22,633 bases of DNA from IMG/VR virus record IMGVR_UViG_3300040807_000267, positions 1 to 22,633 of that record. One strand, 5' to 3'. The notes beneath the pieces were generated by a model that saw only the letters and a program-made list of their open reading frames with translations, was not told where the DNA came from and ran no database searches. The number at the start of each line of letters is the position of its first letter. Position 1 is the stretch's first letter. This document shows positions 9,969 to 22,633 of this stretch, piece after piece. A program made the translations under genes and the position numbers. Source of the stretch: a virus.

Positions 9969-10480
9969 TGGCTGCAGAAAATTGGGATACATGTATTGAG
10001 ATGATTCTTCATCATGAAGGTGGATATGTTAATCATCCAAAAGATCCAGGTGGAGAAACAAATCTTGGAGTTACTAAACGTGTTTATGAAGAACATGGTG
10101 GTACTAAAGATATGAAAGACTTAACAGTTGAAGACGTAAAGCCAATTTACAAAGAATCATATTGGGATCGAGTTAAAGGCGATAATTTGCCAGCTGGTTT
10201 AGATCTTTGTGTATTTGACTTTGGTGTAAATGCTGGAACTGGACGTGCAGCAAAATATCTTCAAACATTGATTGGTACTGTCGCTGATGGTGGTATTGGA
10301 CCAAATACATTAGCAAAATTAGATGCGTACGTTGAAGAAAATGGTTTAGAAAAAACTATTCGTAATTATCAAGACGCTCGTCAAGAATACTACGAAAGCC
10401 TTTCAACATTTGAAACATTTGGTAAGGGATGGACTCGCCGAGTTAATGAAACGACAAACGCGGCATTGTCTATGGCATAA
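9968..10480 (+). CDS. Endolysin, GH108 family N-acetylmuramidase
   Basis: Endolysins cut the host peptidoglycan at the end of infection. The 170-residue protein starts with the GH108 signature: catalytic Glu17 in EGGY (17-20), DPGG (26-29) and TNLGVTK. The C-terminal part with GGIGPNTLAKLDAY resembles the PG_binding_3 domain usual for this family. There is no N-terminal signal peptide, so export would need a holin, and no obvious holin is next to it. AAAGGAG precedes the ATG, which overlaps the previous stop, and its own stop overlaps the next ATG (TAATG). The gene is unusually placed inside the replication cluster, behind a late-type promoter. Confidence 0.9.
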   Translation: MAAENWDTCIEMILHHEGGYVNHPKDPGGETNLGVTKRVYEEHGGTKDMKDLTVEDVKPIYKESYWDRVKGDNLPAGLDLCVFDFGVNAGTGRAAKYLQTLIGTVADGGIGPNTLAKLDAYVEENGLEKTIRNYQDARQEYYESLSTFETFGKGWTRRVNETTNAALSMA

Positions 10481-11460
10481 TGAAATACGAAACCATATAC
10501 GAACCTGGGTGTTTATCTGAAGAGCAAGTAAAAACTCTTCAAGATGGTTTTTATTCTATGGCTGGTCTTCTAGAAGAATGGGAAGGCCGGCCTATACACC
10601 TCACTGAATTTCAGACTCTTGGTTTCTGGCATCATCGACATCCAGAAAGAAAAAGAGACGGTGTATTTCATCACGATTTAGTTCATATAGAATATACACC
10701 GATCAATCACTGGAGAGCTATTCATCCTGAAAACCATCCAAACTTTCCTAATTGGCTTAAGAAGAAAAAATCTATATTTGATGTAGAAGAATTTCATTAT
10801 TATATTGTAGATCTATTAAAGAAAAAATTACCTGAAGTTGGCAGAGATACTTCAGGTAATAATAAACCTTATATGATTGCTTTGTATGACCTAAACTTTA
10901 ATTTTGAGACTCATACAGACGGAGCAGACGTACATTGTAAAAAATTACCACGCCCAGAAAATTGGAGCGATCTTAAACCAGAAGATTGGATATCACCAGA
11001 TGATGAAGGGTGGACATACACTCATCAAGGTCTTATTCCTATTGACGTAACAGATACTAAAGATGGCACAATCATCTTTGATCAAATGTTTGATTATTCA
11101 GTATATCTCAACATGGGAAGAGAATATAATGAATTCTGGTTAGAGAACGATGATCGTAAACAAATGATTAAAATAGGTCGTGGTGATAGTATCGAAAGAT
11201 TCGGTAAGAAAGTAGAAAACTTTACAAATAAGCCAATGACACAAGAAGATTATGATTGGATCATGGAAAATTGTTTCGATGAAACTGACTTTCCAATTGA
11301 ACATGGCTATGGATTGAGCGTAGAAACCATGTGTGAGTTTCATTCGAATGGAACACTATACGATTGGCAAGCAAATAGATTCCACAAGACTCGACCAAGA
11401 GTAGTAAAAGAGGATGAGAGAAGAGTAACACTCGTCTACTCATACGCACAGTTTGATTGA
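10480..11460 (+). CDS. Putative 2-oxoglutarate/Fe(II)-dependent oxygenase
   Basis: The 326-residue protein has the layout of a double-stranded beta-helix dioxygenase. LNFNFETHTDGAD supplies an H-x-D iron-binding pair (about residue 146), GTIIFDQ lies in the following strand, and a distal His in NRFHKTRP is followed by RRVTLVYSYAQF, where an Arg would hold 2-oxoglutarate. T4-like marine phages carry many such enzymes, most with unknown substrates. It starts on the endolysin stop and is followed by an Fe-S carrier gene, so it lies in an iron-linked pair. A perfect 12-bp inverted repeat lies within its coding sequence (10827-10860). The substrate is unknown; modification of DNA or protein is possible. 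Family call is by motif only. Confidence 0.55.
   Translation: MKYETIYEPGCLSEEQVKTLQDGFYSMAGLLEEWEGRPIHLTEFQTLGFWHHRHPERKRDGVFHHDLVHIEYTPINHWRAIHPENHPNFPNWLKKKKSIFDVEEFHYYIVDLLKKKLPEVGRDTSGNNKPYMIALYDLNFNFETHTDGADVHCKKLPRPENWSDLKPEDWISPDDEGWTYTHQGLIPIDVTDTKDGTIIFDQMFDYSVYLNMGREYNEFWLENDDRKQMIKIGRGDSIERFGKKVENFTNKPMTQEDYDWIMENCFDETDFPIEHGYGLSVETMCEFHSNGTLYDWQANRFHKTRPRVVKEDERRVTLVYSYAQFD
10827..10860 (+). repeat. Perfect 12-bp inverted repeat inside the oxygenase gene
   Basis: ATTACCTGAAGT (10827-10838) is followed after 10 bases by its exact reverse complement ACTTCAGGTAAT (10849-10860). A perfect 12-bp stem of this kind is unlikely by chance in 22 kb. It lacks a T-run, so it is not an obvious terminator. 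Confidence 0.7.
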
Positions 11461-11734
11461 AATCACTGAATCAGCAAAAGAATATTTAAACAAAGTCGGA
11501 CAACCAAATGTTTGGTTATCTGTCAAAGGTGGTGGCTGCTCTGGATTCCAATACGTTTGGGATGTCACAGACAAAGAACCAACTATAGAAAATCTAGCAC
11601 TTGATCCAATGGCAGAAATGTTTGTCATTGGTTGTACCATAGATTACGTTAACGAGCTCGGCGGATCTTACTTGAAAGTAGTAAATCCAAATGCGACTGC
11701 GTCATGTGGATGCGGCGAATCTTTTGCGGTTTAA
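11453..11734 (+). CDS. A-type iron-sulfur cluster carrier (IscA/HesB family)
   Basis: A-type carriers receive Fe-S clusters and hand them to target enzymes. This 93-residue protein has all three cluster cysteines: C29 in GGGCSGFQY and C85/C87 in SCGCGESF, plus the typical VNPN before them. The start is a TTG at 11453 that overlaps the oxygenase stop; no ATG or GTG fits, and the N-terminus MIEITESAKEYL is exactly family-like. Upstream binding site is weak, so translation probably depends on coupling. HesB-like genes occur in some marine phages. Clients might be phage or host Fe-S proteins; the neighbouring iron oxygenase and glutaredoxin suggest attention to iron and redox supply. Confidence 0.9.
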   Translation: MIEITESAKEYLNKVGQPNVWLSVKGGGCSGFQYVWDVTDKEPTIENLALDPMAEMFVIGCTIDYVNELGGSYLKVVNPNATASCGCGESFAV

Positions 11735-11747
11735 TTCACTTTTCCTA

Positions 11748-11776
11748 TTTACAAACGTCCTCAAATAGTATATAAT
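11748..11776 (+). promoter_or_regulatory. Sigma70-like promoter for gp43 (TTTACA-N17-TATAAT)
   Basis: TTTACA (11748-11753) and TATAAT (11771-11776) are 17 bases apart. The stretch AAATAGTATATAATA is shared exactly with the promoter at 19796, and closely with that at 14294. GGAGG precedes the gp43 ATG 23 bases after the -10 box. Confidence 0.85.
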
Positions 11777-11798
11777 AATATATGAATTTGGAGGTAAT

Positions 11799-14288
11799 AT
11801 GTCTTTTTATACTAATGTCTGTCGCTATGGTAATTCAATGCTATATCGCGGCTATAATCAACACGGCAAACGAATCTATCGAAAAGATAATGAGTTCAAG
11901 CCTGTTTTCTACACTCAAACAAAAATACCTACAGGATGGACTGGTCTAGACGGCGCACAAATTGCGCGGGTCGAACAGCCAAACATGAGAGAAGCCAAGT
12001 ACTGGCTCGAAGCAAATAAAGACGTTGCTGGTCGTAAGATCTATGGCAACCGTAATTATATTCACCAATACATTACTCAACGCTTTCCACGCGATATCGA
12101 GTTCAAGCGTGAGCGTATTGATGTTGGTACTTTTGATATTGAAACTGAATATGACGATGGCTTTCCACATCCACGTGAAGCGAGCCAGCGTATCCTTTCG
12201 ATTACTTACAAGTCAAGTAAATCGAAGCTATATCACGTCTGGGGTTATGGCGATTTTGACATGAACAAGTCTTTGATTCAGCCAGTTCGCTATTATCGGT
12301 GTCGCGATGAAGCCTCACTCCTCTCCAAATTTCTTGACTTCTGGTCTGACCCAGATAAGACTCCAGACGTGATCACTGGTTGGAATATTCGTTTCTTTGA
12401 TGTACCATACCTTATTAATCGTACTGCTAAGATTCTTGGTGTAGAACAAATCAAACATTACTCTCCTTGGCGTATGGTCGATCATCGTGAAATCACGCGC
12501 CGTGGTCGTACCGAAGACGCTTACGATATCAAGGGTATCGAACAACTCGATTATATGGAACTCTTTCAAAAGTTCGGTTATTCGTATGGCCCGCAAGAAT
12601 CTTATAAACTGGATCATATTGCCTATGTCGTACTTGGAGATAAAAAGCTTTCATACGAAGAATCCGGTTCTCTGAAGAATCTTTATAAAGATGACTTCCA
12701 AAAGTATATCGACTATAATATGAAAGACGTTGAACTTATCGAACGGCTTGAAGAGAAGATGGGATTGATTACCTTAGCTATGACTATGGCTTATCGGGGT
12801 GGTGTCAACTATAGTGACACGTTTGGTGTTACAAATATTTGGGAATCAATCATCTATCGTAAGCTACATTCTGAAAAGCGTATGCCACCAGCCTTTGTCC
12901 CTGATCACGGTAAGTCTAAGTTTGCTGGCGGTTATGTCAAAGAACCGCATGTCGGTGCTCATGACTGGGTAGTTTCGTTTGATTTAAATTCTCTGTATCC
13001 AAACATTATTGTCCAATGGAATATGAGTACTGAAACTCTGATTAGTCAAGCCGAAGCTTCTGGTGTCGAGTACTATATGAATGCTCCAGATTTTACTGAT
13101 GATTGCTGTGTTGCCGCTAACGGATCCACGTATACAAAGAAAGTCGATGGTGTTATTCCTAATATTATTATCGACTACTATGATGATCGTAAGTCAATTA
13201 AGAAGATGATGTTGGCTGCTGAGACTGCGGAACAACAAGAAAAGACAGTTGAACTTGAAAAAGAAATCAACAAACTGAAAAACCAGCAAATGGCTATTAA
13301 GTATCTGATGAACTCTCTTTACGGCGCGCTCGGTAATCAGTACTTTAAGTATTTCGATCTTCGTCTTGCTGAAGGCATAACTCTTACTGGCCAGCTCGCT
13401 ATCAAGTGGGCTGAACGTGCAGTGAATGAGTACATGAACGAATTACTTAAGACCGAAGATGTTGACTATGTTATCGCAATCGATACTGATTCGCTTTATG
13501 TTAACTTTGGTCCAATGGTTGAAAAGTTTGAACCAAAAAATCCAGTCAATTTCCTCGATGGTATTTGTCGTACTCATGTTGAGCCAAAGATTAAAGAAGC
13601 TTATGAGAAACTCTTTACTCGTATGAATTGTTATAAAGACCGTCTTGAAATGGGGCGTGAGGTAATTGCTGATCGTGGTATATGGACCGCTAAAAAGCGC
13701 TATATCTTAAATGTACATAACTCTGAAGGTGTTCAATATGCTGAACCAAAACTCAAGATCATGGGTATTGAAGCGATTAAAAGCTCAACACCCGAAGTAT
13801 GCCGAGATAAGTTTAAGGAGATATTTAAGATCATCATATCTGGATCTGAAGATGACACACAGGCTTATATCAAAGACTTCAAGACAGAATTCAAGTCTCT
13901 TCCTGCTGAAAAAATTGCATTCCCGCGTTCGGTCTCGAATATTACTGACTGGTCAGATCGGAAGTCTATATACAAGAAGGGATCGCCTATTCATGTTCGC
14001 GGTAGTCTCCTCTATAACAAGCTATGCAAGGACAACAAGCTCACAAAGAAATACGAGCTTATTCAAAATGCGAATCGAATCAAATTCTGTTATATGAAAA
14101 TGCCAAATCCAATTCAAGAGAATGTGATCGCGTTTCCAGAAGTTCTTCCACCTGAACTCAAACTCGACCACTATATAGACTATGATCTACAATTTGACAA
14201 GACTTTTGTAGAACCACTCAAACTGATTCTTGACTCGATTGGTTGGCATCCAGAACCAGTCGCAAGTTTAGATGATTTTTTCGCATAA
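11799..14288 (+). CDS. 43: Family B DNA polymerase gp43
   Basis: gp43 is the replicative polymerase with proofreading. The exonuclease has D113-x-E115 (FDIETE, Exo I), NIRFFDVPY (Exo II) and a D in the KDVELIE region (Exo III). The polymerase active site has DLNSLYPNII starting at D395 (motif A), NSLYGALGN (motif B) and DTDSLY with D562 and D564 (motif C). The C-terminus SLDDFFA matches the clamp-binding tail of T4 gp43 (SLDFLFG). Length is 829 residues against 898 in T4. It has its own promoter and strong binding site and is uninterrupted, with no intein or intron seen. In T4 it directly follows regA; here the hsp20-endolysin-IscA island separates them. Confidence 0.97.
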   Translation: MSFYTNVCRYGNSMLYRGYNQHGKRIYRKDNEFKPVFYTQTKIPTGWTGLDGAQIARVEQPNMREAKYWLEANKDVAGRKIYGNRNYIHQYITQRFPRDIEFKRERIDVGTFDIETEYDDGFPHPREASQRILSITYKSSKSKLYHVWGYGDFDMNKSLIQPVRYYRCRDEASLLSKFLDFWSDPDKTPDVITGWNIRFFDVPYLINRTAKILGVEQIKHYSPWRMVDHREITRRGRTEDAYDIKGIEQLDYMELFQKFGYSYGPQESYKLDHIAYVVLGDKKLSYEESGSLKNLYKDDFQKYIDYNMKDVELIERLEEKMGLITLAMTMAYRGGVNYSDTFGVTNIWESIIYRKLHSEKRMPPAFVPDHGKSKFAGGYVKEPHVGAHDWVVSFDLNSLYPNIIVQWNMSTETLISQAEASGVEYYMNAPDFTDDCCVAANGSTYTKKVDGVIPNIIIDYYDDRKSIKKMMLAAETAEQQEKTVELEKEINKLKNQQMAIKYLMNSLYGALGNQYFKYFDLRLAEGITLTGQLAIKWAERAVNEYMNELLKTEDVDYVIAIDTDSLYVNFGPMVEKFEPKNPVNFLDGICRTHVEPKIKEAYEKLFTRMNCYKDRLEMGREVIADRGIWTAKKRYILNVHNSEGVQYAEPKLKIMGIEAIKSSTPEVCRDKFKEIFKIIISGSEDDTQAYIKDFKTEFKSLPAEKIAFPRSVSNITDWSDRKSIYKKGSPIHVRGSLLYNKLCKDNKLTKKYELIQNANRIKFCYMKMPNPIQENVIAFPEVLPPELKLDHYIDYDLQFDKTFVEPLKLILDSIGWHPEPVASLDDFFA

Positions 14289-14293
14289 AACTG

Positions 14294-14322
14294 TTTACAA
14301 AATGACTAAAATAGGATATAAT
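14294..14322 (+). promoter_or_regulatory. Sigma70-like promoter for the MazG-like gene (TTTACA-N17-TATAAT)
   Basis: TTTACA (14294-14299) and TATAAT (14317-14322) are 17 bases apart in the short gap after gp43. The expected start site, 7 bases after the -10 box, is 14329, which is the A of the best ATG of the next gene. Confidence 0.75.
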
Positions 14323-14328
14323 AATATT

Positions 14329-14739
14329 ATGAAACAATGGCACGAAGATATTTGGGATATGCACTACAAGTTTGGTGTACACGAATGGATCATCAAAAAT
14401 ATTGATGACAAAGAAAAGCTAGCAAAGTTTCTTGAGTTTCGTATGAACTTTCTACGTGAAGAACTCAATGAAACACAAAACGCGATTGACAATCAAGATC
14501 CACAAGAAATCGTGGATGGTTTGATCGATCTATGTGTGGTAGCTATTGGTACACTTGACGCCTTCGGTATTGACGCTCAACGAGCTTGGAACGAAGTTCA
14601 TAGTGCTAATATGGCTAAGCAACCTGGCGTAAAAGAATCACGTCCAAATCCGCTTGGTCTTCCAGATTTGATTAAACCTGAGGGATGGACAGGACCAGAT
14701 CATGACGATAACACAGGGTATTTCCCTAACGCTCTTTGA
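14329..14739 (+). CDS. MazG-like (all-alpha NTP-PPase) nucleotide pyrophosphohydrolase
   Basis: All-alpha NTP pyrophosphohydrolases convert NTPs or dNTPs to monophosphates. Counting from the ATG at 14329, the metal-binding helices are visible as EELNE (44-48) and E-I-V-D-G-L-I-D (60-67), the E-E-x-x-E plus E-x-x-D pattern of the fold. The C-terminal tail (ANMAKQPG, then GLPDLIKPEGW) resembles marine phage proteins annotated as MazG- or phosphoribosyl-ATP-pyrophosphohydrolase-like. The longer frame from 14272 overlaps gp43 and the promoter, so I rejected it. No ribosome binding site precedes 14329, and the ATG coincides with the predicted transcription start, so the message may be leaderless. 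With gp42 nearby, a role in emptying the dCTP or dUTP pool is attractive but unproven. Confidence 0.75.
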   Translation: MKQWHEDIWDMHYKFGVHEWIIKNIDDKEKLAKFLEFRMNFLREELNETQNAIDNQDPQEIVDGLIDLCVVAIGTLDAFGIDAQRAWNEVHSANMAKQPGVKESRPNPLGLPDLIKPEGWTGPDHDDNTGYFPNAL

Positions 14740-15643
14740 TAATATATTTGACACTAAAACTGACAAGCGTATTGATCTAGCAGATTTTAATGCGTTTGAA
14801 CGTGTTTTATATCAGTTGTCTGAAGTTGAACGTAAAGGCAAAAAAGACGCTCAATTGATGTCACCGGCGATATATAATAAAGGCACAACAAGATTGAATG
14901 ATAATGTTATTGAATGGACTGGATGGTGTGCAGTCGATGTTGATGATTGGATACCAGAAGGAGATCTAGAAGATGATTTACTTAGCCGTTTTTCTCGTTA
15001 TCGTTTTGTTTGCTATAGTACTGCCAGCTCACAAGCTGATCACCCTAAGTTTAGGTTGGTCTTCCCAATTACCAGAGCTGTACAAGCCGATCGAATTCAA
15101 AAATTCTGGTACGCGCTCCAATCCGATCTTGGAGATCTCGGAGATCGACAAACTAAGGATTTCTCGCGCATGTATTATATCCCTGGCAAATATATTATGG
15201 CTGACAATTTTATATTCAGCAATCGTGACGGTGACGCTATTGATCCAGATGAGTTAATCTTTAAGCATCCAATGCCAGAAAAAGCAAGCCTCAATAACTT
15301 CTTTGATCGCTTGCCTGAAGCTCTACAAGAACAAATCGTTCAATATCGTAAAGATAATCTTGATGCCAGCTTTGAATGGTCGTCTTATCATGACTGTCCG
15401 TTCTGGCCAAAGCATCTTGCGAATGAATACAAAGCTATTTCTAAAACTGGTTGGTATGCCAAGATGTATTCTATTATGGTAGCCACTGCCGGTAATGCGG
15501 TACGTAATAAGTATCCAATTACTGCTGACGAGATCTCTCAACTATGTCGACAATTTGACCAAGACACTGGTAACTGGTACAAGAATCGTCCACTTAATAA
15601 AGAAGCTGATCGTGCTCTCGAATACGTTTATAAAAATTTATAA
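14702..15643 (+). CDS. Primase-polymerase-like (AEP superfamily) protein, tentative
   Basis: The 313-residue protein has features of archaeo-eukaryotic primase-like domains in phage and plasmid replication proteins: hydrophobic-D-x-D-D (CAVDVDDW, D79 and D81), then CYSTASSQADHPKFRLVFPI with a candidate motif II His114, and DFSRMYYIPG further on. The C-terminal 80 residues look like a helical PriCT-type module (ITADEISQLCRQ). There is no helicase domain. T4-like phages normally prime with gp61 (DnaG-like), so a second primase-type protein would be unusual. The gene overlaps the MazG-like gene by 38 bases and has AGGA about 8 bases before the ATG. It is the last gene before the next promoter. 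The family call is by eye and moderate. Confidence 0.45.
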   Translation: MTITQGISLTLFDNIFDTKTDKRIDLADFNAFERVLYQLSEVERKGKKDAQLMSPAIYNKGTTRLNDNVIEWTGWCAVDVDDWIPEGDLEDDLLSRFSRYRFVCYSTASSQADHPKFRLVFPITRAVQADRIQKFWYALQSDLGDLGDRQTKDFSRMYYIPGKYIMADNFIFSNRDGDAIDPDELIFKHPMPEKASLNNFFDRLPEALQEQIVQYRKDNLDASFEWSSYHDCPFWPKHLANEYKAISKTGWYAKMYSIMVATAGNAVRNKYPITADEISQLCRQFDQDTGNWYKNRPLNKEADRALEYVYKNL

Positions 15644-15659
15644 TTTGATAACTTTTTTG

Positions 15660-15688
15660 TTTACAAATGAAAAAAACTTTGATATAAT
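15660..15688 (+). promoter_or_regulatory. Sigma70-like promoter (TTTACA-N17-TATAAT) before the 60-residue gene
   Basis: TTTACA (15660-15665) and TATAAT (15683-15688) are 17 bases apart, followed by GAGGAG (15702-15707) before the ATG at 15715. This promoter heads the run of small genes leading into the modification cassette. Confidence 0.8.
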
Positions 15689-15714
15689 ATATCTAACAGT
15701 TGAGGAGATATATA

Positions 15715-15897
15715 ATGAAAACCTATCTTGTTTGGGGCGAATATGGTCCTGTTGCGTATATGACTATTGAATATAAAGTTCAAGCCGAATCACGTGATGC
15801 TGCTCGTGCAGAGGGTATCCGTCTGTTGAAAGAGACTGACTACTGGGATCGCATTGGCGAACGCAACGTCTATGTTATGGATCCATTGGATCCTTGA
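15715..15897 (+). CDS. Small hypothetical protein, 60 residues
   Basis: First gene after a strong promoter with a textbook binding site (GAGGAG, 7 bases from the ATG). An in-frame TTG at 15700 was rejected because it precedes that site. The sequence suggests a short beta-alpha fold: strands with KTYLVW and YMTIEYKVQAES, a helix with RDAARAEGIRLL, then VYVMDPLDP at the end. I do not recognise a family. High expression signals suggest an early host-interaction or regulatory protein, which is inference from context only. Confidence 0.8.
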   Translation: MKTYLVWGEYGPVAYMTIEYKVQAESRDAARAEGIRLLKETDYWDRIGERNVYVMDPLDP

Positions 15898-15909
15898 GGA
15901 GAATGCGTA

Positions 15910-16473
15910 ATGCTTACAGTAAATGATGATCGAATCATAGATATTATTGAAATACCGGTATCTCAAATCGGTAAGGGCGATAACCCTAGTGCTAGTAGTA
16001 ACCGCGAATATTTGAAAGCTGTTTATCAAGTCTTTCACAAAGACAACAAAGATAAGATTGGTGATCAATTAATTCATGAAGATATTGGTTATAGTGGTTC
16101 TTCAAAAGATGTTTGGTATAGAACAGTAAGTATTAGACAACCTAATGGTAGTCATGGGTGTGGTGTTTATATGCGAAACAATGACTTAAATTTAGATGAC
16201 TATCTAATTAGGTATCTTTGTTTAGACGAAGATCTTAGTCCAAAACAAATTAAAGAATTTGAAACTGAGATTCAAAATACTACCAAAGAAAAATTTGGTG
16301 CTAAGTTTGCTTGGGCTGGAGCATCTGGTGGTAATTCTGGTAGTAAAGATAGAATTTTGTCTTTAATTCCAAATCTGAATACAGAAGAAATGTTAGAGAT
16401 AAAAGAAAAATTAGAGTCTGCATTCATGGAAAAAGCAATGGATGCAGCACAACAAGCATGGAGCGCAGCATGA
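15910..16473 (+). CDS. Hypothetical protein, 187 residues
   Basis: Starts at an ATG with GAGGAG 8 bases upstream, 12 bases after the previous stop. I see no known family. The N-terminal part (RIIDIIEIPVSQIGKG) and a glycine/serine-rich middle (GYSGSSKDVWYRTVSIRQ) look globular. A low-complexity stretch AWAGASGGNSGSK then leads into a charged amphipathic helix ending in KAMDAAQQAWSAA. No signal peptide. Codon use is more AT-rich and less varied than in the replication genes, perhaps a recent arrival. The stop overlaps the next gene (ATGA). Confidence 0.75.
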   Translation: MLTVNDDRIIDIIEIPVSQIGKGDNPSASSNREYLKAVYQVFHKDNKDKIGDQLIHEDIGYSGSSKDVWYRTVSIRQPNGSHGCGVYMRNNDLNLDDYLIRYLCLDEDLSPKQIKEFETEIQNTTKEKFGAKFAWAGASGGNSGSKDRILSLIPNLNTEEMLEIKEKLESAFMEKAMDAAQQAWSAA

Positions 16474-16817
16474 AATATTCTCTTAAAGTTCTTCAGCGTG
16501 CAGCTGAAATCCAAAACAAGAAATCTTCTGATTATCAGAATCCAAACTCACGAATCAAACAAGCAGACTATTATGTCCGTGGTTGTTCCACTATTCTCGA
16601 TACAATGCATGCCAAAGTTCTTCGTATGCAGTCTGTCATGGAAGCAATGGAAAAAGATCCAGACTATGGTATAAACTTTGAATCACTCGAAGATTCTTGT
16701 ATTGATCTCATTAACTATGCTTCTTTCTTCGCAGCTTATCTTGCAGGTGAAATGGAAGGTCAAAAGCCAGATCGTGATTTTCTAAATCGTCCAGTGGAGA
16801 CTAACAATGTTAATTAA
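16470..16817 (+). CDS. DUF1599-type (nucleotide-modification-associated) protein, tentative
   Basis: The 115-residue protein begins at the ATG overlapping the previous stop (ATGA), with GGAG upstream; an in-frame ATG at 16458 contains that binding site and was rejected. Its pattern K-K-S-S-D-Y near residue 20, then D-T-M-H-A-K-V-L-R-M and finally DSCIDLINYASFFAAYL matches, to my recollection, DUF1599: a (K)DY motif, a D-x-x-x-K-x-x-R-I/M helix and an E/D-x-x-x-D-x-I-N-Y helix. That all-helical domain is reported in nucleotide-modification gene neighbourhoods of phages. It lies about 1.6 kb upstream of dCMP hydroxymethylase, consistent with such a role. Activity is unknown. Confidence 0.5.
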   Translation: MKYSLKVLQRAAEIQNKKSSDYQNPNSRIKQADYYVRGCSTILDTMHAKVLRMQSVMEAMEKDPDYGINFESLEDSCIDLINYASFFAAYLAGEMEGQKPDRDFLNRPVETNNVN

Positions 16818-17145
16818 TATTAATGATATCGGTGGTGAAGTCGTCAAAGAAGACGATCGCTATAGAGTAGTTGACAACAAGACACTAAATAATCTTATCG
16901 TAAGCAGCACTGACTTATATGCCGGTAAGTCTACAAGTGGTCATGCTCATGCTGGTCAAGAAGAAGTCTATTACTTTGTTAAAGGCTCTGGTAAAATGGA
17001 ACTCGATAATCATTTATTTACATTCTTCATCAATGTAAAAGAAGGTGATGTTGTTTTGATTCCTGACGGATGGTTCCATCGAGTACACGCAGGTCCGCAC
17101 GGATGCTACTTTGTTTGTGTCTTCGATGGAAAGCGCAATCACTAA
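16807..17145 (+). CDS. Cupin-fold protein (metal-binding type)
   Basis: A single-domain cupin of 112 residues. Metal ligands are visible as GHAHAGQEE (H46, H48, E52 or E53) followed by YYFVKGSG, and IPDGWFHRV with H91, the two classic cupin boxes. Single cupins include sugar isomerases, epimerases, dioxygenases and binding proteins. Between a DUF1599-type gene and a sugar-nucleotide locus, a sugar-isomerase role is possible but not shown. The start overlaps the previous gene by 11 bases with GGAG upstream, and the stop overlaps the next ATG (TAATG). Confidence 0.8.
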   Translation: MLININDIGGEVVKEDDRYRVVDNKTLNNLIVSSTDLYAGKSTSGHAHAGQEEVYYFVKGSGKMELDNHLFTFFINVKEGDVVLIPDGWFHRVHAGPHGCYFVCVFDGKRNH

Positions 17146-17351
17146 TGGCTGAACTTAGAGAAAAGATTAATCAACGTATGGACATCCTTCAGATGTGGAT
17201 GGAAAAGAATTATCATCTACAACGTCCAGAAGTCGTATCGGAACATATTGCGACAGTCAGTAAGTTTTGGTCTGTCTTGTCTGAAGAAGATCGTGACTAT
17301 ATACAATGTAGTCAACACGCAATTGAAGAACAAACGGAATGGAATGTTTAA
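17145..17351 (+). CDS. Small helical hypothetical protein, 68 residues
   Basis: The ATG at 17145 overlaps the cupin stop (TAATG) and gives 68 residues. A longer frame reaching back to 17070 overlaps the cupin heavily and was rejected. The protein appears all-helical (EKINQRMDILQMWMEKNY, then EHIATVSKFWSVLSEEDRDYI) and ends HAIEEQTEWNV. I have seen similar endings in small conserved proteins of T4-like marine phages but cannot name a family. Its stop is coupled to the second Sm-like gene. Confidence 0.75.
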   Translation: MAELREKINQRMDILQMWMEKNYHLQRPEVVSEHIATVSKFWSVLSEEDRDYIQCSQHAIEEQTEWNV

Positions 17352-17644
17352 TGAATTACCAAGAAAATGATATTGTTACTCTCGTACTTTTGAATGGTGC
17401 TGAAGTAATTGGCCGATACAAAGGTAAGAGTGAAGGTACTGTCACGATCTATAAACCTCGTATGGTATCTCCACAAGAATCTGCTACTGGCGTAACTATC
17501 GGATTTGTACCAGGAATTAGTATGACAGGTGAACAACCAAATGGAGACTTCGTCTTTTCAACTAACTCTATCCTTTATATTTTAAGAACAAATGATCAGA
17601 TCGCTAGTGGTTGGCAGAAAACAACTTCAGGATTAGTGACATAA
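17351..17644 (+). CDS. Second Sm-like (LSm-fold) small protein, hypothetical
   Basis: This 97-residue protein shares the pattern L-L-N-G-A-E-V-I near residue 14, a following strand VTIYKPRMV, F-V-P-G-I-S-M-T and a C-terminal I-L-Y-I-L-R-T with the protein at 1222-1677, spaced alike. It lacks the acidic tail of that protein. I read both as short Sm-type beta barrels. The ATG overlaps the previous stop (TAATG), and its stop overlaps the nucleotidyltransferase ATG. Sm-fold proteins often bind RNA or oligomerise into rings; nothing more can be said here. Confidence 0.75.
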   Translation: MNYQENDIVTLVLLNGAEVIGRYKGKSEGTVTIYKPRMVSPQESATGVTIGFVPGISMTGEQPNGDFVFSTNSILYILRTNDQIASGWQKTTSGLVT

Positions 17645-18066
17645 TGAGAATCGGATTAACTGCATCAACATTTGATCTGTTACACGCAGGTCATATCGCC
17701 ATGTTGAGAGAAGCAAAATCTCAATGTGACTACTTAATTTGTGCTCTACAGGTTGATCCGACTCTTGATCGTAAAGAAAAGAATGCGCCTGTTCAAAGTA
17801 TCGTTGAAAGACAGGCTCAATTGGCTGCAATAAAATATGTCGATGAAGTGCTTATTTATTGTACAGAAGCCGATTTACTTGATATAATAAACATGTATCC
17901 AATTAATATACGGATACTTGGCGAAGAGTATCGTCAAAAAGATTTTACCGGTAAAGATGAATGCCGTAATCGTGGTATTGAACTTTACTTTAACAAGCGA
18001 GACCACCGGTTCTCGTCTAGTGATTTGAGGGAGAGAGTAGCAGATGCGAATATACACCGTAAGTGA
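17644..18066 (+). CDS. Nucleotidyltransferase, TagD/glycerol-3-phosphate cytidylyltransferase-like
   Basis: Members of this HxGH family join a CTP- or ATP-derived nucleotide to a phosphorylated small molecule. The 140-residue protein has the signature GLTASTFDLLHAGH with HAGH at 14-17, E-R-Q-A-Q-L-A-A-I-K-Y-V-D-E in the middle and S-S-S-D-L-R-E-R near the C-terminus in place of the usual ISTT-x-I-x-x-R/ISSS-x-L-R. Likely substrates are a sugar or polyol phosphate. It precedes dCMP hydroxymethylase and a glycosyltransferase locus, so it may activate a sugar for DNA modification. The start overlaps the previous stop (TAATG). A perfect internal promoter (17860-17888) lies in its coding region, and its end overlaps gp42 by 23 bases. 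Confidence 0.85.
   Translation: MRIGLTASTFDLLHAGHIAMLREAKSQCDYLICALQVDPTLDRKEKNAPVQSIVERQAQLAAIKYVDEVLIYCTEADLLDIINMYPINIRILGEEYRQKDFTGKDECRNRGIELYFNKRDHRFSSSDLRERVADANIHRK
17860..17888 (+). promoter_or_regulatory. Intragenic promoter ahead of dCMP hydroxymethylase (TGTACA-N17-TATAAT)
   Basis: TGTACA (17860-17865), 17 bases, and TATAAT (17883-17888) match the window consensus exactly, though inside the nucleotidyltransferase gene. It lies about 155 bases upstream of gp42 and could give the hydroxymethylase and deaminase their own early transcript. Confidence 0.55.
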
Positions 18067-18772
18067 TATCCGTCGATTCTTTATTGACGAACTAAAAGAT
18101 GAAGCGTTTACAATCGATAAAACTGGCATGAAAACAATTGAATTGATTGGTGCTTCATTTCTAGCAGATGAGCCATCTATCTTTGGTACTCCCAATCAGG
18201 ACTATATTGATGATGAGATTGCTTGGTATTATTCTCAATCAACTAATATCAATGATATCTATCGGTTGCCAAATCATCCGAAAGATAAAGCACCACCAGA
18301 AGCTTGGCAATACACTGCAAATAAACACGGTGAAATCAATTCTAATTATGGTTTATTGATTTTTGGACATAAATATTTTCAGCAGTATGAACTGGCTCTA
18401 GATGAGCTACTAACAAATCCAGATAGCCGTCGTGCTACTATGATCTATACACGTCCTTCTATCTGGAGCGAGTACAATGAAAATGATAAAAACGATTTTA
18501 TTTGTACCAATTCTGTCACCTATTACATTCGTGATAATCTTCTCCATGCGGTTGTTCAAATGCGTTCGAATGATGTAGTGTTCGGTTATAAGAACGATTA
18601 TGCTTGGCAAGATCATATCTTGAATAAATTGGTCGATGACTACAATGGTTGCCGCGATCTAGACATTATCGCGCGCGATAATCATAATCGTGAAGAAATC
18701 AGTGCTGGTAGTATTACTTGGCAAGTTCAAAACTTACATGTTTATGAAAGGCATTTCCACCTTGTCAAATAA
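18044..18772 (+). CDS. 42: dCMP hydroxymethylase (T4 gp42-like)
   Basis: gp42 converts dCMP to 5-hydroxymethyl-dCMP using methylenetetrahydrofolate, the committed step to hydroxymethylcytosine DNA. The 242-residue protein aligns closely with T4 gp42 (246): KTGMKTIELIGASFLADEP, GEINSNYG, NPDSRRATMIYTRPS, then the catalytic C154 (FICTNSV), and MRSNDVVFGYKNDYAWQ. D185 in that last motif corresponds to T4 Asp179, which specifies cytosine; thymidylate synthases have Asn there. The Cys-to-Asp distance (31) is the same as in T4. This is therefore not a thymidylate synthase. GAGGGAGAG lies upstream of the ATG. Downstream is dCMP deaminase. T4 gp42 homologues are uncommon in marine T4-like phages, as I recall. 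Confidence 0.93.
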   Translation: MRIYTVSDIRRFFIDELKDEAFTIDKTGMKTIELIGASFLADEPSIFGTPNQDYIDDEIAWYYSQSTNINDIYRLPNHPKDKAPPEAWQYTANKHGEINSNYGLLIFGHKYFQQYELALDELLTNPDSRRATMIYTRPSIWSEYNENDKNDFICTNSVTYYIRDNLLHAVVQMRSNDVVFGYKNDYAWQDHILNKLVDDYNGCRDLDIIARDNHNREEISAGSITWQVQNLHVYERHFHLVK

Positions 18773-19199
18773 ATGGGATAAGAGATACCTTGAGCTAGCA
18801 GAACAGGTCTCCACCTGGTCTAAAGATCCACGTACTAAAGTTGGTGCTGTGGCTGTTGGACCAAAAGGCCAAGTTCTCGCTCAAGGTTATAATGGTTTTC
18901 CTCGTGGGATTAGTGATGATGATCGTTATGATGATCGTACGAGGAAATATGAGCTGGTAGTCCACGCAGAAATGAATGTCATATATAATGCTTCATATAA
19001 TGGTGTTTCATTGGATGAATCGACGTTATACGTGCATGGGCTACCGGCTTGCTCAGATTGTGCCAAAGGTATTATCCAAGTTGGCATCAAAAGAGTTGTC
19101 ATGAGAGATCAGGAAATTCCGACTCTCTGGCAACAATCATGGACTAAAACAGAAGAAATGTTTAACGAAGCGGGAGTTTCCTATGACTTTATCGAATAG
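18762..19199 (+). CDS. cd: dCMP deaminase
   Basis: dCMP deaminase makes dUMP for thymidine synthesis. The zinc site is visible as H68-A-E70 (HAEMNVI) and C97-S-D-C100 (LPACSDCAK) counted from the TTG at 18762, with C-A-K-x-I-I-Q-V-G-I-K-R-V-V typical of the family. I prefer TTG 18762 (N-terminus MSNKWDKRYLELA) because GAAAGG lies about 10 bases upstream; ATGs at 18744 and 18690 are in frame but without a binding site and overlap gp42 more. It follows gp42 by an 11-base overlap. The pair shares dCMP as substrate, so the balance between them decides between thymine and hydroxymethylcytosine precursors. Length is 145 residues, shorter than T4 Cd (193). Confidence 0.92.
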   Translation: MSNKWDKRYLELAEQVSTWSKDPRTKVGAVAVGPKGQVLAQGYNGFPRGISDDDRYDDRTRKYELVVHAEMNVIYNASYNGVSLDESTLYVHGLPACSDCAKGIIQVGIKRVVMRDQEIPTLWQQSWTKTEEMFNEAGVSYDFIE

Positions 19200-19455
19200 A
19201 GAATCTTATGAAGATTACATGGTACGGCGTCTTAAAGAAGAAGAATTTTCTAGATATCCAACTACACCTGAGCTACTAGAAAAAATAGAAATTCTTGAAA
19301 AACGAATTAAAACGATTGAAACTGATTTAGCCTACATCTGGAAACCAATTATTCCGGATGAATACAAGAAGAAATACTGGACGCATACAGTAGAGACAAG
19401 TGGCGATATTCCTGAATACATGAAACAAAAGATCAAAGAATATCTAAACAAATGA
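19183..19455 (+). CDS. Small coiled-coil hypothetical protein
   Basis: The 90-residue protein starts inside the deaminase 3' end, with GGGAG upstream. A central charged coiled coil is evident (ELLEKIEILEKRIKTIETDLAYI), followed by a short tail with KYWTHTVETSG and a final helix. No family is recognised. Its stop overlaps the following gene (ATGA). It may be a small oligomeric adaptor, but nothing direct supports that. Confidence 0.75.
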   Translation: MTLSNRESYEDYMVRRLKEEEFSRYPTTPELLEKIEILEKRIKTIETDLAYIWKPIIPDEYKKKYWTHTVETSGDIPEYMKQKIKEYLNK

Positions 19456-19823
19456 AAGTTCTTGTAGTCGGACATAGTCCTGGTAGCTCTAAAATTAAAT
19501 TTAGAGATAAGTCACCTACGATTAAAAGGCTAAACGTATGGCTGGAGGCATGTGATGTATATCTATATAGCTTTACTAATCTTCGAGCCTCCAGCGTACG
19601 ATTTCACCGAAATGATGAAAGTGATGAAATATTGTTACAGGAATGCATTAAGGGCTATAATAAAATTATAACTTTAGGTAAAGAAGTGTCACAATATTTC
19701 AAAAAACAAGGCATAAATCACTTCCCGGCTCCGCACCCTTCGCCGTTAAATAGAAAGTTTAATGACAAATCATTTGAACCCAGCGTGATTAACAGTTTAC
19801 AAACCTATCTAAATAGTATATAA
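19452..19823 (+). CDS. Uracil-DNA glycosylase-fold protein, short
   Basis: Residues 95-101 form HPSPLNR, the C-terminal signature of uracil-DNA glycosylases (HPSPLS in family 1). GHSPG at 7-11 resembles the N-terminal GxxPG motif, and LYSFTNL and ITLGKEV fit the central strands of the fold. At 123 residues it is shorter than usual (about 200), so it is either a minimal UDG or a related UDG-fold enzyme. The first catalytic motif (Asp and Tyr of GQDPY) is not clearly present. A modified-base role is possible given its place between gp42/dCMP deaminase and a glycosyltransferase; it could also remove uracil produced by deamination. The promoter for the glycosyltransferase overlaps its 3' end. Confidence 0.6.
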   Translation: MKVLVVGHSPGSSKIKFRDKSPTIKRLNVWLEACDVYLYSFTNLRASSVRFHRNDESDEILLQECIKGYNKIITLGKEVSQYFKKQGINHFPAPHPSPLNRKFNDKSFEPSVINSLQTYLNSI

Positions 19824-19824
19824 T
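19796..19824 (+). promoter_or_regulatory. Sigma70-like promoter for the glycosyltransferase unit (TTTACA-N17-TATAAT)
   Basis: TTTACA (19796-19801) and TATAAT (19819-19824) are 17 bases apart, the -10 box containing the stop codon of the UDG-like gene. The bases AAATAGTATATAATA are identical to the gp43 promoter. AAAAGGA lies before the ATG at 19849. It puts glycosyltransferase, mutase and epimerase under their own transcript. Confidence 0.8.
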
Positions 19825-19848
19825 ATACAAAATTGAAAAGGATTCGTC

Positions 19849-20874
19849 ATGAAAATATTGATTACTGGCATGAACAAGCAGCAGTGTACTGAGAACTTTT
19901 ATAAAACGTCTCAGTTAAAAATTATTCCGTCTCACATTTCTTTGATTGCGTGTCTTCGTGACATGGGCCATGAAGTAGAGCAACGCGGTGTTACTATCGG
20001 AGAAGACCTTAGCTCATATGATAAGGTCATTTGTTATATTCATAACCCGTCTGGTTTTGCTAGATTTCTTTATAATGGTCTGTGGCTTCTCGGTGCTCGA
20101 GAAGAAGACGTCATTCTCGCTTTCGATGATTGGCAAACAGAAGGTATTTACAAAGGTTTGATGGCTCTTCAAGATGATAGCAAACTGTTTCGTAAGTACT
20201 TTAAAGACATGGCTGAACGCATTCCGGATAATATAGAACAGTACGAGCAAGTCTTAAATAAAGGTCTTGCCGCGATTGAGGCTAAGAAGCATCCTATGTT
20301 AGTCAGCGCGTTTGCTGGTGGTGATCTGTCTCTGCTTATTGACTATCCTAAAGAACTTTTATATGGCTTTAATCCAAATCCGTATCACATTAATCTGCAA
20401 TCTAACTTTAATCCTCTCTTTGATGAGAAACAAAAAGTCTTTAATTATGCTGGTCTAATTCAGGACAAGACGAAGAAATGGATTAAAGAGCAAAATATCG
20501 GTGATTGGAAACTCAAGAAATACGGTTCTCGTAAAGACGGTCAGGATCGAGTCATTGAACCAGAAATGGTTAACATCTACGGTCAACAATGGGGTGTCCT
20601 CATGCCAGGTTATTTCCATGCCGGTTCTGGTTGGTGGAGAGCTCGTCCTCTACAGGTAGCAGACGCTGGTTCTATTCTAATCGGTGACTGGAAAGAAATG
20701 GTTCTCTATTACGATGACGATGAACTCGCTTCTATCAAGGCGCACGAATTGACCGCAATGTCAGACACTCAGCTCGAGGACGTAGCAGATGCTCAGAAAA
20801 AAGCACTATATACTACACACCCGCTCGATAAAGGTGTCGAGCAGGAAGAACTTAACAAGGTATTACACGCATGA
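19849..20874 (+). CDS. GT-B-type glycosyltransferase, candidate DNA hydroxymethylcytosine sugar transferase
   Basis: The 341-residue protein looks like a two-Rossmann GT-B enzyme, similar in size and order to T4 beta-glucosyltransferase (351). N-terminal: MKILITGMN, then SHISLIACLRDMGHEVEQRGV and SSYDKVICYIHN, matching the T4 order of strands. AFDDWQTE lies where the T4 protein has YLFTDIRLP with catalytic Asp100. C-terminal: KKYGSRKDG, then QQWGVLMPGY, WRARPLQVADAGSILIGDWKEM, lying like ALIIGD and RVWETMASDAVMLID of T4. Sequence identity is low, so the DNA target is inferred from context (gp42 upstream) and layout. An alternative is a lipopolysaccharide or capsule sugar transferase. It has its own promoter and is coupled to the mutase gene (ATGA). 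Confidence 0.5.
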   Translation: MKILITGMNKQQCTENFYKTSQLKIIPSHISLIACLRDMGHEVEQRGVTIGEDLSSYDKVICYIHNPSGFARFLYNGLWLLGAREEDVILAFDDWQTEGIYKGLMALQDDSKLFRKYFKDMAERIPDNIEQYEQVLNKGLAAIEAKKHPMLVSAFAGGDLSLLIDYPKELLYGFNPNPYHINLQSNFNPLFDEKQKVFNYAGLIQDKTKKWIKEQNIGDWKLKKYGSRKDGQDRVIEPEMVNIYGQQWGVLMPGYFHAGSGWWRARPLQVADAGSILIGDWKEMVLYYDDDELASIKAHELTAMSDTQLEDVADAQKKALYTTHPLDKGVEQEELNKVLHA

Positions 20875-21884
20875 AGATTCTAGTAGTAGGTGCTGGTTTT
20901 TGTGGAGTAACGGTAGCTCGTTTACTGGCAGAAGCAGGCCACAAGATCACAGTAATTGATGAGAGAGACCACGTCGCAGGTAACGCATATGACTATATAA
21001 ACCAGTATGGCATTCGTGTCCACAAATATGGTCCTCATCTTTTTCACACAAATAATAAGAAAGTCTATGATTGGTTAAATCAATTTACGACTTGGGTTCC
21101 GTACAAGCATAAAGTAAAGGCTATCCTTGAAGACGGTCAGTACGTAACTCTTCCAGTCAATAGAGAGACAAAACGTATTGTCGGTGAAGATAAGATTGTC
21201 GACACGTTCTTTCGACCTTATACTTACAAGATGTGGGGTAAGCCGATCGAAGAGCTTGATCCGAGTATTATCAATCGTATTCCAAGTCGTGATGATGATA
21301 ACGAGTACTATTTCCCTAATGACGAGTATCAGGCTCTACCAAAAAACGGCTACACGGAAATGGTAAAAAATATTCTCGATCACGAAAACATCGCGGTATC
21401 ACTTAGTACAAGATTTGATTATGACATGGAGAAAGCTTTCGATCACGTATTCAATTCTATGCCGATTGATGTGTATTTCGATTATCGTCATGGCGAACTA
21501 CCGTATCGTTCTATTAAGTTTTATAATGTCACACTACCAATTCCTAAGCTATTACCGACAGGTACAGTTAACTTTACACATGATGGACCATACACGAGAG
21601 TAACAGAATGGAAGAACTTGCCAGCGCACGGCACGAATCCGCGCTACACGACTCTAACGTATGAACAGCCTTGTGACTATCGTGAGAACGACAAAGAGAG
21701 ATACTATCCTGTTAAAGACATTGACGGTAAAAATCGCGAAACATATGAAAAATATAAACAGATGGTAAATCCAAATATGACTTTTATTGGTAGATGTGGA
21801 ATGTACGTATACATAGACATGCACCAAGCAATTAACTCTGCTATGTCGACTGCAGAGAAATTTATTCAGGAGAATTTGGTATGA
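20871..21884 (+). CDS. glf: UDP-galactopyranose mutase
   Basis: This flavoenzyme interconverts the pyranose and furanose forms of UDP-galactose (some relatives use UDP-arabinose). The 337-residue protein has the FAD Rossmann motif GAGFCG (7-12), ERDHVAGNAYD, YGPHLFHTN (53-61), KVYDWLNQFTTW, the conserved RPYTYKMWG that contacts the substrate, and a C-terminal FIGRCGMYVYIDMHQAI. All are standard UGM landmarks. It is slightly shorter than bacterial Glf (about 370-390). The start overlaps the glycosyltransferase stop and the stop overlaps the epimerase (ATGA at both). Its presence implies the sugar transferred is a furanose, or that the pathway supplies cell-surface galactofuranose. Confidence 0.93.
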   Translation: MKILVVGAGFCGVTVARLLAEAGHKITVIDERDHVAGNAYDYINQYGIRVHKYGPHLFHTNNKKVYDWLNQFTTWVPYKHKVKAILEDGQYVTLPVNRETKRIVGEDKIVDTFFRPYTYKMWGKPIEELDPSIINRIPSRDDDNEYYFPNDEYQALPKNGYTEMVKNILDHENIAVSLSTRFDYDMEKAFDHVFNSMPIDVYFDYRHGELPYRSIKFYNVTLPIPKLLPTGTVNFTHDGPYTRVTEWKNLPAHGTNPRYTTLTYEQPCDYRENDKERYYPVKDIDGKNRETYEKYKQMVNPNMTFIGRCGMYVYIDMHQAINSAMSTAEKFIQENLV

Positions 21885-22627
21885 AGGTAGCGATTACTGG
21901 ATCACGTGGTTTTATCGGTGGCCACTTAAAAGAGAGACTCAAAAGAGACGGTCATGAGATCACTGAATGGGATCTTCGAGTTGATAAACCAATAGAAGAA
22001 TTTGAATTAGCCGGTGCAGACTACGTAGTGCACCTTGCCGCGTGGGCAGACGTAAGAGCCTCTATTGAAGAGCCACAAAAGTACTGGGATAATAACGTAA
22101 CTAATACTACTCGTATTCAAAAACATTGTTACTACAATAATGTGCCTCTCTTGTACGCGTCTTCTTCTTGTATTCATCAGTGGTGGTTATCGCCATACGG
22201 TATTAGCAAGAAGGTAAATGAAGAGACCGCGTACGATAAGCAAGTCGGTCTTCGATTTACGACCGTATACGGTGAGGGTGCACGAGACACGATGCTCATT
22301 GGTCGATTAGCGAGTGGTAATATCAAGTATCTGACAAATCACGTACGCGACTTCGTTCATGTAGATGACGTAGTAGACGCTATTATACTACTCATGAATA
22401 GTGATATTCGTTTACTCAAACCCGCTTACGACATCGGCACCGGTAAAGGTGATGTGGTATCAGAACTCGGTAAGATCGCAGGATACACGGATCTTCCAGT
22501 ACAGTGCGGTGATGCTTGTGAAGCACAAGATAACACAGCAGATATCAGTGATATGAAAGCTCTCGGCTGGGATCCGCAAGTAGACGTAAAACAATATTTG
22601 AATCAAATCAAATTAAACAGAAAGTAA
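21881..22627 (+). CDS. Sugar-nucleotide epimerase/dehydratase (extended SDR family)
   Basis: NAD-dependent enzymes of this family alter UDP- or dTDP-sugars; UDP-glucose 4-epimerase is the best-known. Visible are the cofactor motif GSRGFIGG (7-14), HLAAWADVR, SSSCIHQ, the catalytic Y106-G-I-S-K110, RFTTVYGEGAR and RDFVHVDDVVDA. At 248 residues it is shorter than GalE (about 338), with a reduced C-terminal substrate domain, so the exact substrate cannot be read. In a unit with UDP-galactopyranose mutase, a UDP-glucose to UDP-galactose conversion feeding Glf is the simplest guess. The start is coupled to glf with CAGGAG upstream. An ATG (22631-22633) ends the window, perhaps the next gene. Confidence 0.85.
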   Translation: MKVAITGSRGFIGGHLKERLKRDGHEITEWDLRVDKPIEEFELAGADYVVHLAAWADVRASIEEPQKYWDNNVTNTTRIQKHCYYNNVPLLYASSSCIHQWWLSPYGISKKVNEETAYDKQVGLRFTTVYGEGARDTMLIGRLASGNIKYLTNHVRDFVHVDDVVDAIILLMNSDIRLLKPAYDIGTGKGDVVSELGKIAGYTDLPVQCGDACEAQDNTADISDMKALGWDPQVDVKQYLNQIKLNRK

Positions 22628-22633
22628 AATATG

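Follow-up and report, generated by a model that had tools for sequence, protein, structure and literature searches.

The window analysed here is the whole of IMG/VR virus record IMGVR_UViG_3300040807_000267, a 22.6-kb virus fragment (positions 1–22,633). A list of open reading frames (ORFs) and family scans place a run of plus-strand genes from 14.3 kb onward, in the order MazG-like, primase-like, an uncharacterised ORF, DUF1599-like, cupin, small ORFs, nucleotidyltransferase, gp42-like, deaminase, a small protein, UDG-like, transferase, UDP-galactopyranose mutase (UGM) and epimerase. Judged from its relatives, this locus is probably a DNA-glycosylation cassette, and we think it rather likely that the cassette makes galactofuranosyl-5-hydroxymethylcytosine in phage DNA, the sugar being suggested by the genes that would supply it. 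The features at the centre of this prediction are:

18044..18772, plus strand: T4 gp42-type dCMP 5-hydroxymethylase with Asp185 (53% identity to T4 gp42; PDB 1b49, 5e-69)
18690..19199, plus strand: dCMP deaminase, start codon uncertain (PF00383, 3.9e-20; phrog_174, 4.4e-46)
19183..19455, plus strand: small cassette protein (ORF; 44–50% identical relatives in a few loci)
19452..19823, plus strand: small protein weakly resembling the UDG superfamily (PF03167, 7.1e-5, below cut-off; cluster in 20 of 85 sets, these being 84 contigs and the window)
19796..19824, plus strand: sigma-70-like promoter TTTACA-17-TATAAT, directly ahead of the transferase
19849..20874, plus strand: GT-B glycosyltransferase, proposed DNA 5-hydroxymethylpyrimidine glycosyltransferase (phrog_14998, 2e-38; AlphaFold2 model)
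20871..21884, plus strand: UGM (GLF, 6.8e-53, 179.8 bits; 4-base overlap with the transferase)
21881..22627, plus strand: sugar-nucleotide epimerase, a short SDR with a proposed UDP-glucose 4-epimerase role (PF01370, 1.6e-26; 4-base overlap with the UGM)

An earlier note on this DNA had named the hydroxymethylase with its Asp185, the dCMP deaminase, the GT-B transferase, the UGM and the epimerase, and all were recovered by family scans, alignment and modelling. The coordinates also confirm the ATGA coupling of the last three genes. A UDG-fold protein had been named as well; it does match PF03167, but weakly and under the cut-off. The last three genes had further been given a promoter of their own. 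That site is conserved in close relatives – of 19 loci with a transferase at least 74% identical, 18 retain the pattern, and it is present in 21 of 80 loci having 90 bases upstream versus 3 of 4000 mononucleotide shuffles – but for sigma-70-like sites in general the region shows no enrichment (28 against 23.1 ± 5.5 in shuffles).

Relatives were collected around three anchors. The transferase-anchored set has 84 contigs, the best 80 of 388 relatives and four from another scan, whose 27 further matches fall on contigs already included, with the window itself excluded; the other two sets are the best 80 of 531 UGM relatives and the best 80 of 556 gp42 relatives. Presence in a locus was scored by tblastn at thresholds of 1e-5, 1e-8 or, for UDP-glucose dehydrogenase, 1e-10. 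Some contigs are nearly the same (L102–L105, for example), so the counts are not of independent loci, and many contigs end inside the cassette. The order gp42, deaminase, transferase, UGM, epimerase recurs in dozens of them. A megablast search of window positions 10000–22633 against deposited phages found no match, and Rfam and tRNA scans of the window gave no lead.

In alignment the window hydroxymethylase is 51–54% identical to gp42 of T4/T6 and 24–27% identical to the enzyme of Mosigvirus NBG1, taken as representative of the RB69 type. The distinction matters because Mosigvirus enzymes produce 5-hydroxy-dCMP, according to PMC13390438. Bit scores point the same way: 235.9 to T4 gp42 versus 35.8–35.9 to two solved chains named ‘thymidylate synthase’, both of which are matched at 422 bits by the enzyme of the Morganella phage Rgz1, of RB69 type and 79% identical to that of NBG1. 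The Asp at residue 185 aligns with the Asp of T4 gp42, and an Asn/Asp switch at thymidylate synthase position 177 is described as the cytosine-selecting site in PMC8670742. The Asp is kept in the other aligned thymidylate-synthase-fold enzymes from transferase-bearing records too, including DSL-LC01 and ctIqW946. By sequence, assignment of the window enzyme to the T4 gp42 type is strong, and the RB69-type 5-hydroxy-dCMP synthase is excluded. The comparison with an arabinosylated hydroxymethylcytosine in RB69, drawn in the earlier note, is out of date – the DNA of RB69 and NP carries arabinosyl-5-hydroxycytosine (PMC13390438, PMC6024577).

The transferase gene lies where T4 has its own DNA glucosyltransferase. 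The T4 order is 42, b-gt, segA, uvsX; relatives of the window have gp42, deaminase, transferase, UGM, epimerase and a gene that we take, by sequence and position, to be UvsX. The gp42-anchored set has 43 complete slots from gp42 to UvsX: a T4-type alpha-glucosyltransferase (AGT) fills 17 of them, a window-type transferase 7 and a third system 19, and none holds two. Over all 80 gp42-anchored loci the numbers are 36, 10 and 27, with zero co-occurrence. The one AGT-family slot member tested scored 97.2 bits to PF11440, against a cut-off of 25. The slot thus looks like a site for a DNA sugar transferase, with the window transferase one interchangeable tenant.

Other contents of the slot vary. The third system in 19 of the 43 complete slots is typified by L230:8108-10947, with families k15 (phrog_13881), k18 and k23. 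UDP-glucose dehydrogenase accompanies 9 of the 17 complete T4-type AGT slots (L239:8228-11246 and 16 more; L239 also has an epimerase), and such slots perhaps put a uronic sugar on 5-hydroxymethylcytosine (hmC). In L248:3913-5211 and L235 a myo-inositol-1-phosphate synthase-like gene lies downstream of gp42 (PF01658, 3.2e-8 in L248), possibly for an inositol-type modification. A C5-cytosine DNA methyltransferase (PF00145) lies near UvsX in L095:9857-11044, with matches in 30 of the 84 transferase loci; these are cassettes whose cytosine C5 should already carry a modification.

An AlphaFold2 model of the transferase (pLDDT 85, pTM 0.85) has the GT-B fold. It was made from 31 sequences: 80 of the 84 transferases passed trimming, 32 were left without near-copies, and 30 of these were used with that of the window. 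In Foldseek the top match was SenB, the selenosugar synthase (1.9e-6), and T4 beta-glucosyltransferase (BGT) came fourth (4.5e-6). A structural aligner gave Z scores of 16.4 for SenB, 15.2 for T4 BGT (293 residues), 15.2 for glycogen synthase and 13.5 for T4 AGT; the matches to SenB and to T4 BGT and AGT run over the whole length, comprising the two Rossmann-like domains of GT-B. The GT-B assignment of the earlier note is thus upheld, and T4 BGT is among the best matches to the model. SenB scores higher, and since GT-B folds resemble each other the match shows the fold and not the acceptor.

By sequence the transferase stands outside the AGT and BGT families in Pfam, PDB profile and hhalign comparisons. 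No Pfam family, AGT (PF11440) included, matched at E ≤ 0.1 except DUF3220 at 0.054. At E ≤ 1 a profile search against PDB sequences listed neither an AGT nor a BGT chain, and its only two hits (E 0.44 and 0.46) were to one unrelated protein. Homology to T4 BGT was considered as proof of function and rejected, with an hhalign probability of 28.

The UGM assignment is strong. Its GLF domain scores 179.8 bits against a cut-off of 26.3, and the closest solved structures are UGMs; the protein is shorter (337 aa) than these (at least 367 aa) and does not reach the TIGR00031 equivalog (273.9 bits versus 303.75). In the Klebsiella enzyme we take the substrate-binding residues to be Tyr155, Trp160, Arg174, Tyr185, Arg280, Tyr314, Arg343, Tyr349 and Asp351. 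They align with Tyr117, Trp122, Arg136, Tyr147, Arg243, Tyr279, Arg308, Tyr314 and Asp316 of the window protein, and all nine are invariant across 16 aligned UGMs. UDP-galactopyranose is the presumed substrate.

Of the 84 transferase loci, 55 include an epimerase gene: 34 have it downstream of the transferase and 21 have it upstream. The window epimerase belongs to the downstream type, an SDR of a different and shorter kind. For the window protein the best NCBIfam match is galE at 4.1e-17, with 62 bits to TIGR01179 (cut-off 262.3). The two upstream epimerases examined, from other branches, reach 216.5 bits in L059 and 143.6 in L102 (4e-64 and 6e-42), GalE-like although still below the equivalog cut-off. 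That two distinct epimerase types were recruited beside UGM fits a need for UDP-galactose.

Transferase and UGM are closely coupled. UGM is found in 65 of the 84 transferase-anchored loci and the transferase in 61 of the 80 UGM-anchored loci, always adjacent (within ca. 150 bases); among 32 representatives without near-copies, 27 have UGM and 23 have gp42. UDP-glucose dehydrogenase is the entry to UDP-glucuronate and the UDP-pentoses. It is present in just 2 of the 84 transferase loci, 1 of the 80 UGM loci and 0 of 19 loci of the TET/JBP branch described below, versus 39 of the 80 gp42 loci, and this scarcity speaks for a hexofuranose rather than a pentofuranose. Co-divergence of transferase and UGM was set aside as support: its Spearman correlation (0.64, 49 sets) is not above that of UGM and gp42 (0.67), and so adds nothing specific.

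The same pair is found with a different base-modifying enzyme. The complete phage C48C1 has the transferase–UGM pair and no gp42 match, and the gene overlapping its transferase start encodes a Tet_JBP dioxygenase (62.6 bits, cut-off 34.9). A scan with the C48C1 transferase gave a sister branch of 19 contigs, of which 17 have the dioxygenase, 17 UGM and 18 an epimerase; the upstream part is missing from two of the contigs, and two stop within the transferase gene. No gp42 was detected in 14 records of this branch (13 contigs and C48C1), while the same query matched in other records. With gp42 or TET/JBP beside the same transferase, two unrelated routes to pyrimidine C5 would share one sugar module. 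No C5-methyltransferase was found in those 14 records either, with a control matching in 10 of the 14 genomes, so the acceptor in this branch may be hydroxymethyluracil, and the modified base thymine-derived as in base J. The branch is illustrated by L002:10586-14033 and L121–L139, which have Tet_JBP, (nucleotidyltransferase), epimerase, transferase and UGM, with no gp42 or detectable C5-methyltransferase. None of the ten window proteins scanned is a Tet_JBP.

In the pathway proposed for the window, the gp42-type enzyme, whose family assignment is strong, would make 5-hydroxymethyl-dCMP for incorporation into DNA, and by analogy with T4 the deaminase and the MazG-type enzyme would drain unmodified dCMP and dCTP. 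The epimerase would turn host UDP-glucose into UDP-galactose, and the UGM would contract UDP-galactopyranose to UDP-galactofuranose. The GT-B transferase would then put the furanose on the hydroxymethyl group in DNA, as suggested by its fold, its position, its exchange with a DNA glucosyltransferase and its coupling to the other genes. Such modification would serve as protection against host nucleases. As a candidate, the central claim of the earlier note – hmC glycosylated by a DNA transferase fed with a UDP-furanose – is supported by the T4-type hydroxymethylase, the GT-B fold with its match to T4 BGT, the beta-gt position, the exchange with AGT and the coupling to TET/JBP. Its suggestion of galactofuranose or a similar sugar agrees with the epimerase and UGM supply, though the sugar itself remains a prediction. 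For the family as a whole, it seems an even call that one UGM-fed transferase family adds galactofuranose to 5-hydroxymethylpyrimidines, with gp42, acting on the nucleotide, leading to galactofuranosyl-hmC and TET/JBP, acting on DNA, leading to galactofuranosyl-hmC or a base-J-like galactofuranosyl-hydroxymethyluracil, and that this is widespread as one of several interchangeable cassettes beside gene 42.

A number of observations weigh against galactofuranosyl-hmC, and some favour another sugar on the same DNA. UGM is absent from 15 of the 47 complete slots of the transferase-anchored set, and was found nowhere in 12 contigs of this kind or in L084 (0 of 13), so the transferase family can use another donor. 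Sixteen gp42-bearing transferase contigs lack UGM, dehydrogenase and epimerase in the locus, at least one of them (L036) ending inside the transferase. A diverged transferase clade (36–40% identity, outside the best-80 set) goes with UDP-glucose dehydrogenase and an epimerase instead of UGM, two contigs combine transferase, UGM and a dehydrogenase match (L091, the same contig as L242, and L106, 31%), and the window epimerase is no clear GalE. Given these mixed partners, galactofuranose is not a fixed feature of the whole transferase family, and the partner genes probably determine which sugar a cassette uses. The sugar transferred might be a pyranose (glucose, galactose or a uronic sugar), with the UGM and epimerase serving something else; however, wherever transferase and UGM are both present they are neighbours (65 of 65 transferase-anchored and 61 of 61 UGM-anchored loci), overlapping by four bases in the window, and we consider a pyranose unlikely. 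Equally doubtful, or only a shade less so, is a pentofuranose, in which the UGM would act on UDP-arabinopyranose and the product would be arabinofuranosyl-hmC. Bacterial UGMs are able to convert UDP-arabinopyranose in vitro, and Morganella phage Rgz1 has a 28% relative of the transferase inside its RB69-type arabinose cluster, flanked by genes for an arabinose-5-phosphate isomerase and a nucleotidyltransferase-kinase-like protein. Yet Rgz1 carries the RB69-type enzyme instead of gp42, no UDP-glucose dehydrogenase or other pentose route is seen in the cassette, the dehydrogenase is rare in the transferase loci, and the two upstream epimerases examined in sister branches are GalE-like.

Other points bear on the acceptor. 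The fold score of SenB slightly exceeds that of T4 BGT and glycogen synthase equals it. In fold the protein is also near to many GT-B enzymes of bacteria, and the hhalign comparison with T4 BGT is weak, covering 62 columns. UGM commonly serves cell-surface glycans: 19 of the 80 UGM-anchored loci have no transferase (some are cut at the contig end), several of those UGMs lying among GT25-type genes, and in the 123-kb contig G042 (L202) the UGM is in a GT25-type island far from gp42, whose slot is occupied by a 40% transferase and a dehydrogenase. Phage UGMs therefore serve other contexts too. Nor does gp42 alone predict the transferase, as 70 of its 80 closest relatives lack a window-type one, and exclusivity in the slot is not absolute, since in Aeromonas phages a k15-type third-system protein follows the transferase (L004:9118-10164). 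A transferase and UGM acting on a surface glycan, lipopolysaccharide or virion protein is nevertheless improbable, given the slot shared and exchanged with T4-type DNA alpha-glucosyltransferase, the coupling to gp42 or TET/JBP, and T4 BGT among the top fold matches. Least probable of all is that the base is 5-hydroxycytosine as in RB69. A distant transferase relative does occur in phages with the RB69-type enzyme, but for the hydroxymethylase of the window identity is 53% to T4 gp42 versus 27% to the Mosigvirus enzyme, and on this and the bit scores given above 5-hydroxycytosine was rejected as the base.

Galactofuranosyl-hmC would resemble several known systems in part. The T4/T6 glucosyl-hmC system has, like the window, a T4-type hydroxymethylase, a dCMP deaminase and a GT-B transferase at a site between gene 42 and uvsX, but by Pfam and PDB profile search the window transferase falls in neither T4 family, and T4 uses host UDP-glucose whereas the window phage encodes its own UGM and epimerase. 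RB69 and other Mosigvirus phages, with arabinosyl-5-hydroxycytosine, likewise have phage sugar genes between polymerase and UvsX. Their hydroxymethylase-type enzyme differs from that of the window (27% to NBG1), and scans of ten proteins from the 22.6-kb window, nine of them belonging to the cassette, showed no arabinose-5-phosphate isomerase or nucleotidyltransferase-kinase. A scan of viral contigs for relatives of the Rgz1 transferase gave no lead. Phage TET/JBP systems with glycosyltransferases are approached by the C48C1-type branch, which joins the same transferase–UGM pair to Tet_JBP; the window has gp42 and, in the scanned set, no TET protein.

Among isolated phages the pair is found in Aeromonas phages (Tulanevirus), Stenotrophomonas phage IME13 and Erwinia phage FBB1, and in the unrelated DSL-LC01. 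In the Aeromonas, IME13 and FBB1 phages UGM adjoins a transferase relative as in the window, and both phages tested (FBB1 and 50AhydR13PP) have a T4-type gp42. The transferases are only 31–33% identical to that of the window, however, and in FBB1 and 50AhydR13PP the pair lies near motA, not next to gp42, and a search for the epimerase gave no match.

Phage DNA with glycosylated, C5-modified bases is known; galactofuranose on it is apparently new within the literature searched. That search, which covers few subscription papers and preprints, turned up no paper on phage DNA carrying galactofuranose, in keeping with the earlier note, which knew of no described galactofuranosyl-hmC. It gave no lead for C48C1 and no paper on Aeromonas phages and UGM together. 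Thanatos DNA has a (deoxy)pentose bound directly to cytosine (PMC12838424). Agrobacterium phage Atu_ph04 has both a UGM and a deoxycytidylate hydroxymethyltransferase, and its DNA is uncut by nine restriction enzymes; its authors assigned the UGM to the cell wall (PMC6630229).

If the prediction holds, DNA can carry a hexofuranose, and phages exchange entire sugar modules while keeping the base, presumably escaping defences that read glucosyl-hmC. The cassette makes it possible to test the range of sugars that phages can attach to DNA, and the way in which a transferase is combined with a sugar supply and a base-hydroxylating enzyme.

Further genes of the run lie upstream of the hydroxymethylase:

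14272..14739, plus strand: MazG-like nucleotide pyrophosphohydrolase (phrog_671, 4.8e-25; upstream of gp42 in many relatives)
16458..16817, plus strand: small DUF1599-like protein, ‘nucleotide modification associated domain 1’ (PF07659, E = 0.014, below cut-off; phrog_1485, 1.9e-11)
16807..17145, plus strand: cupin (PF07883, 2.2e-7; patchy, 13 of 85 sets)
17644..18066, plus strand: accessory cytidylyltransferase-like nucleotidyltransferase, HldE / glycerol-3-phosphate cytidylyltransferase type (PF01467, 4.8e-13; TIGR02199, 2.5e-19, far under cut-off)

The MazG-like protein is a candidate dCTP remover. Members of the DUF1599-like cluster are found in 58 of the 85 sets. The nucleotidyltransferase and cupin, which the earlier note had proposed as a further sugar-activating step, were rejected as specific makers of the cassette sugar: the nucleotidyltransferase is present in 34 of 84 transferase loci and in 52 of 80 gp42-anchored loci, whereas UGM is present in just 5 of those 80, and the cupin is patchy. 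The loci of L165, L171 and L172 have UGM with a cupin and/or nucleotidyltransferase but neither gp42 nor the transferase; another gene precedes UGM there, in L171 one with no Pfam match.

Elsewhere in the window, positions 10480–11460 encode a 326-residue protein with no Pfam match at E 0.1 and no PHROG match at 0.01, and positions 8949–9413 encode an Hsp20-type small heat shock protein (phrog_432, 1.4e-35).

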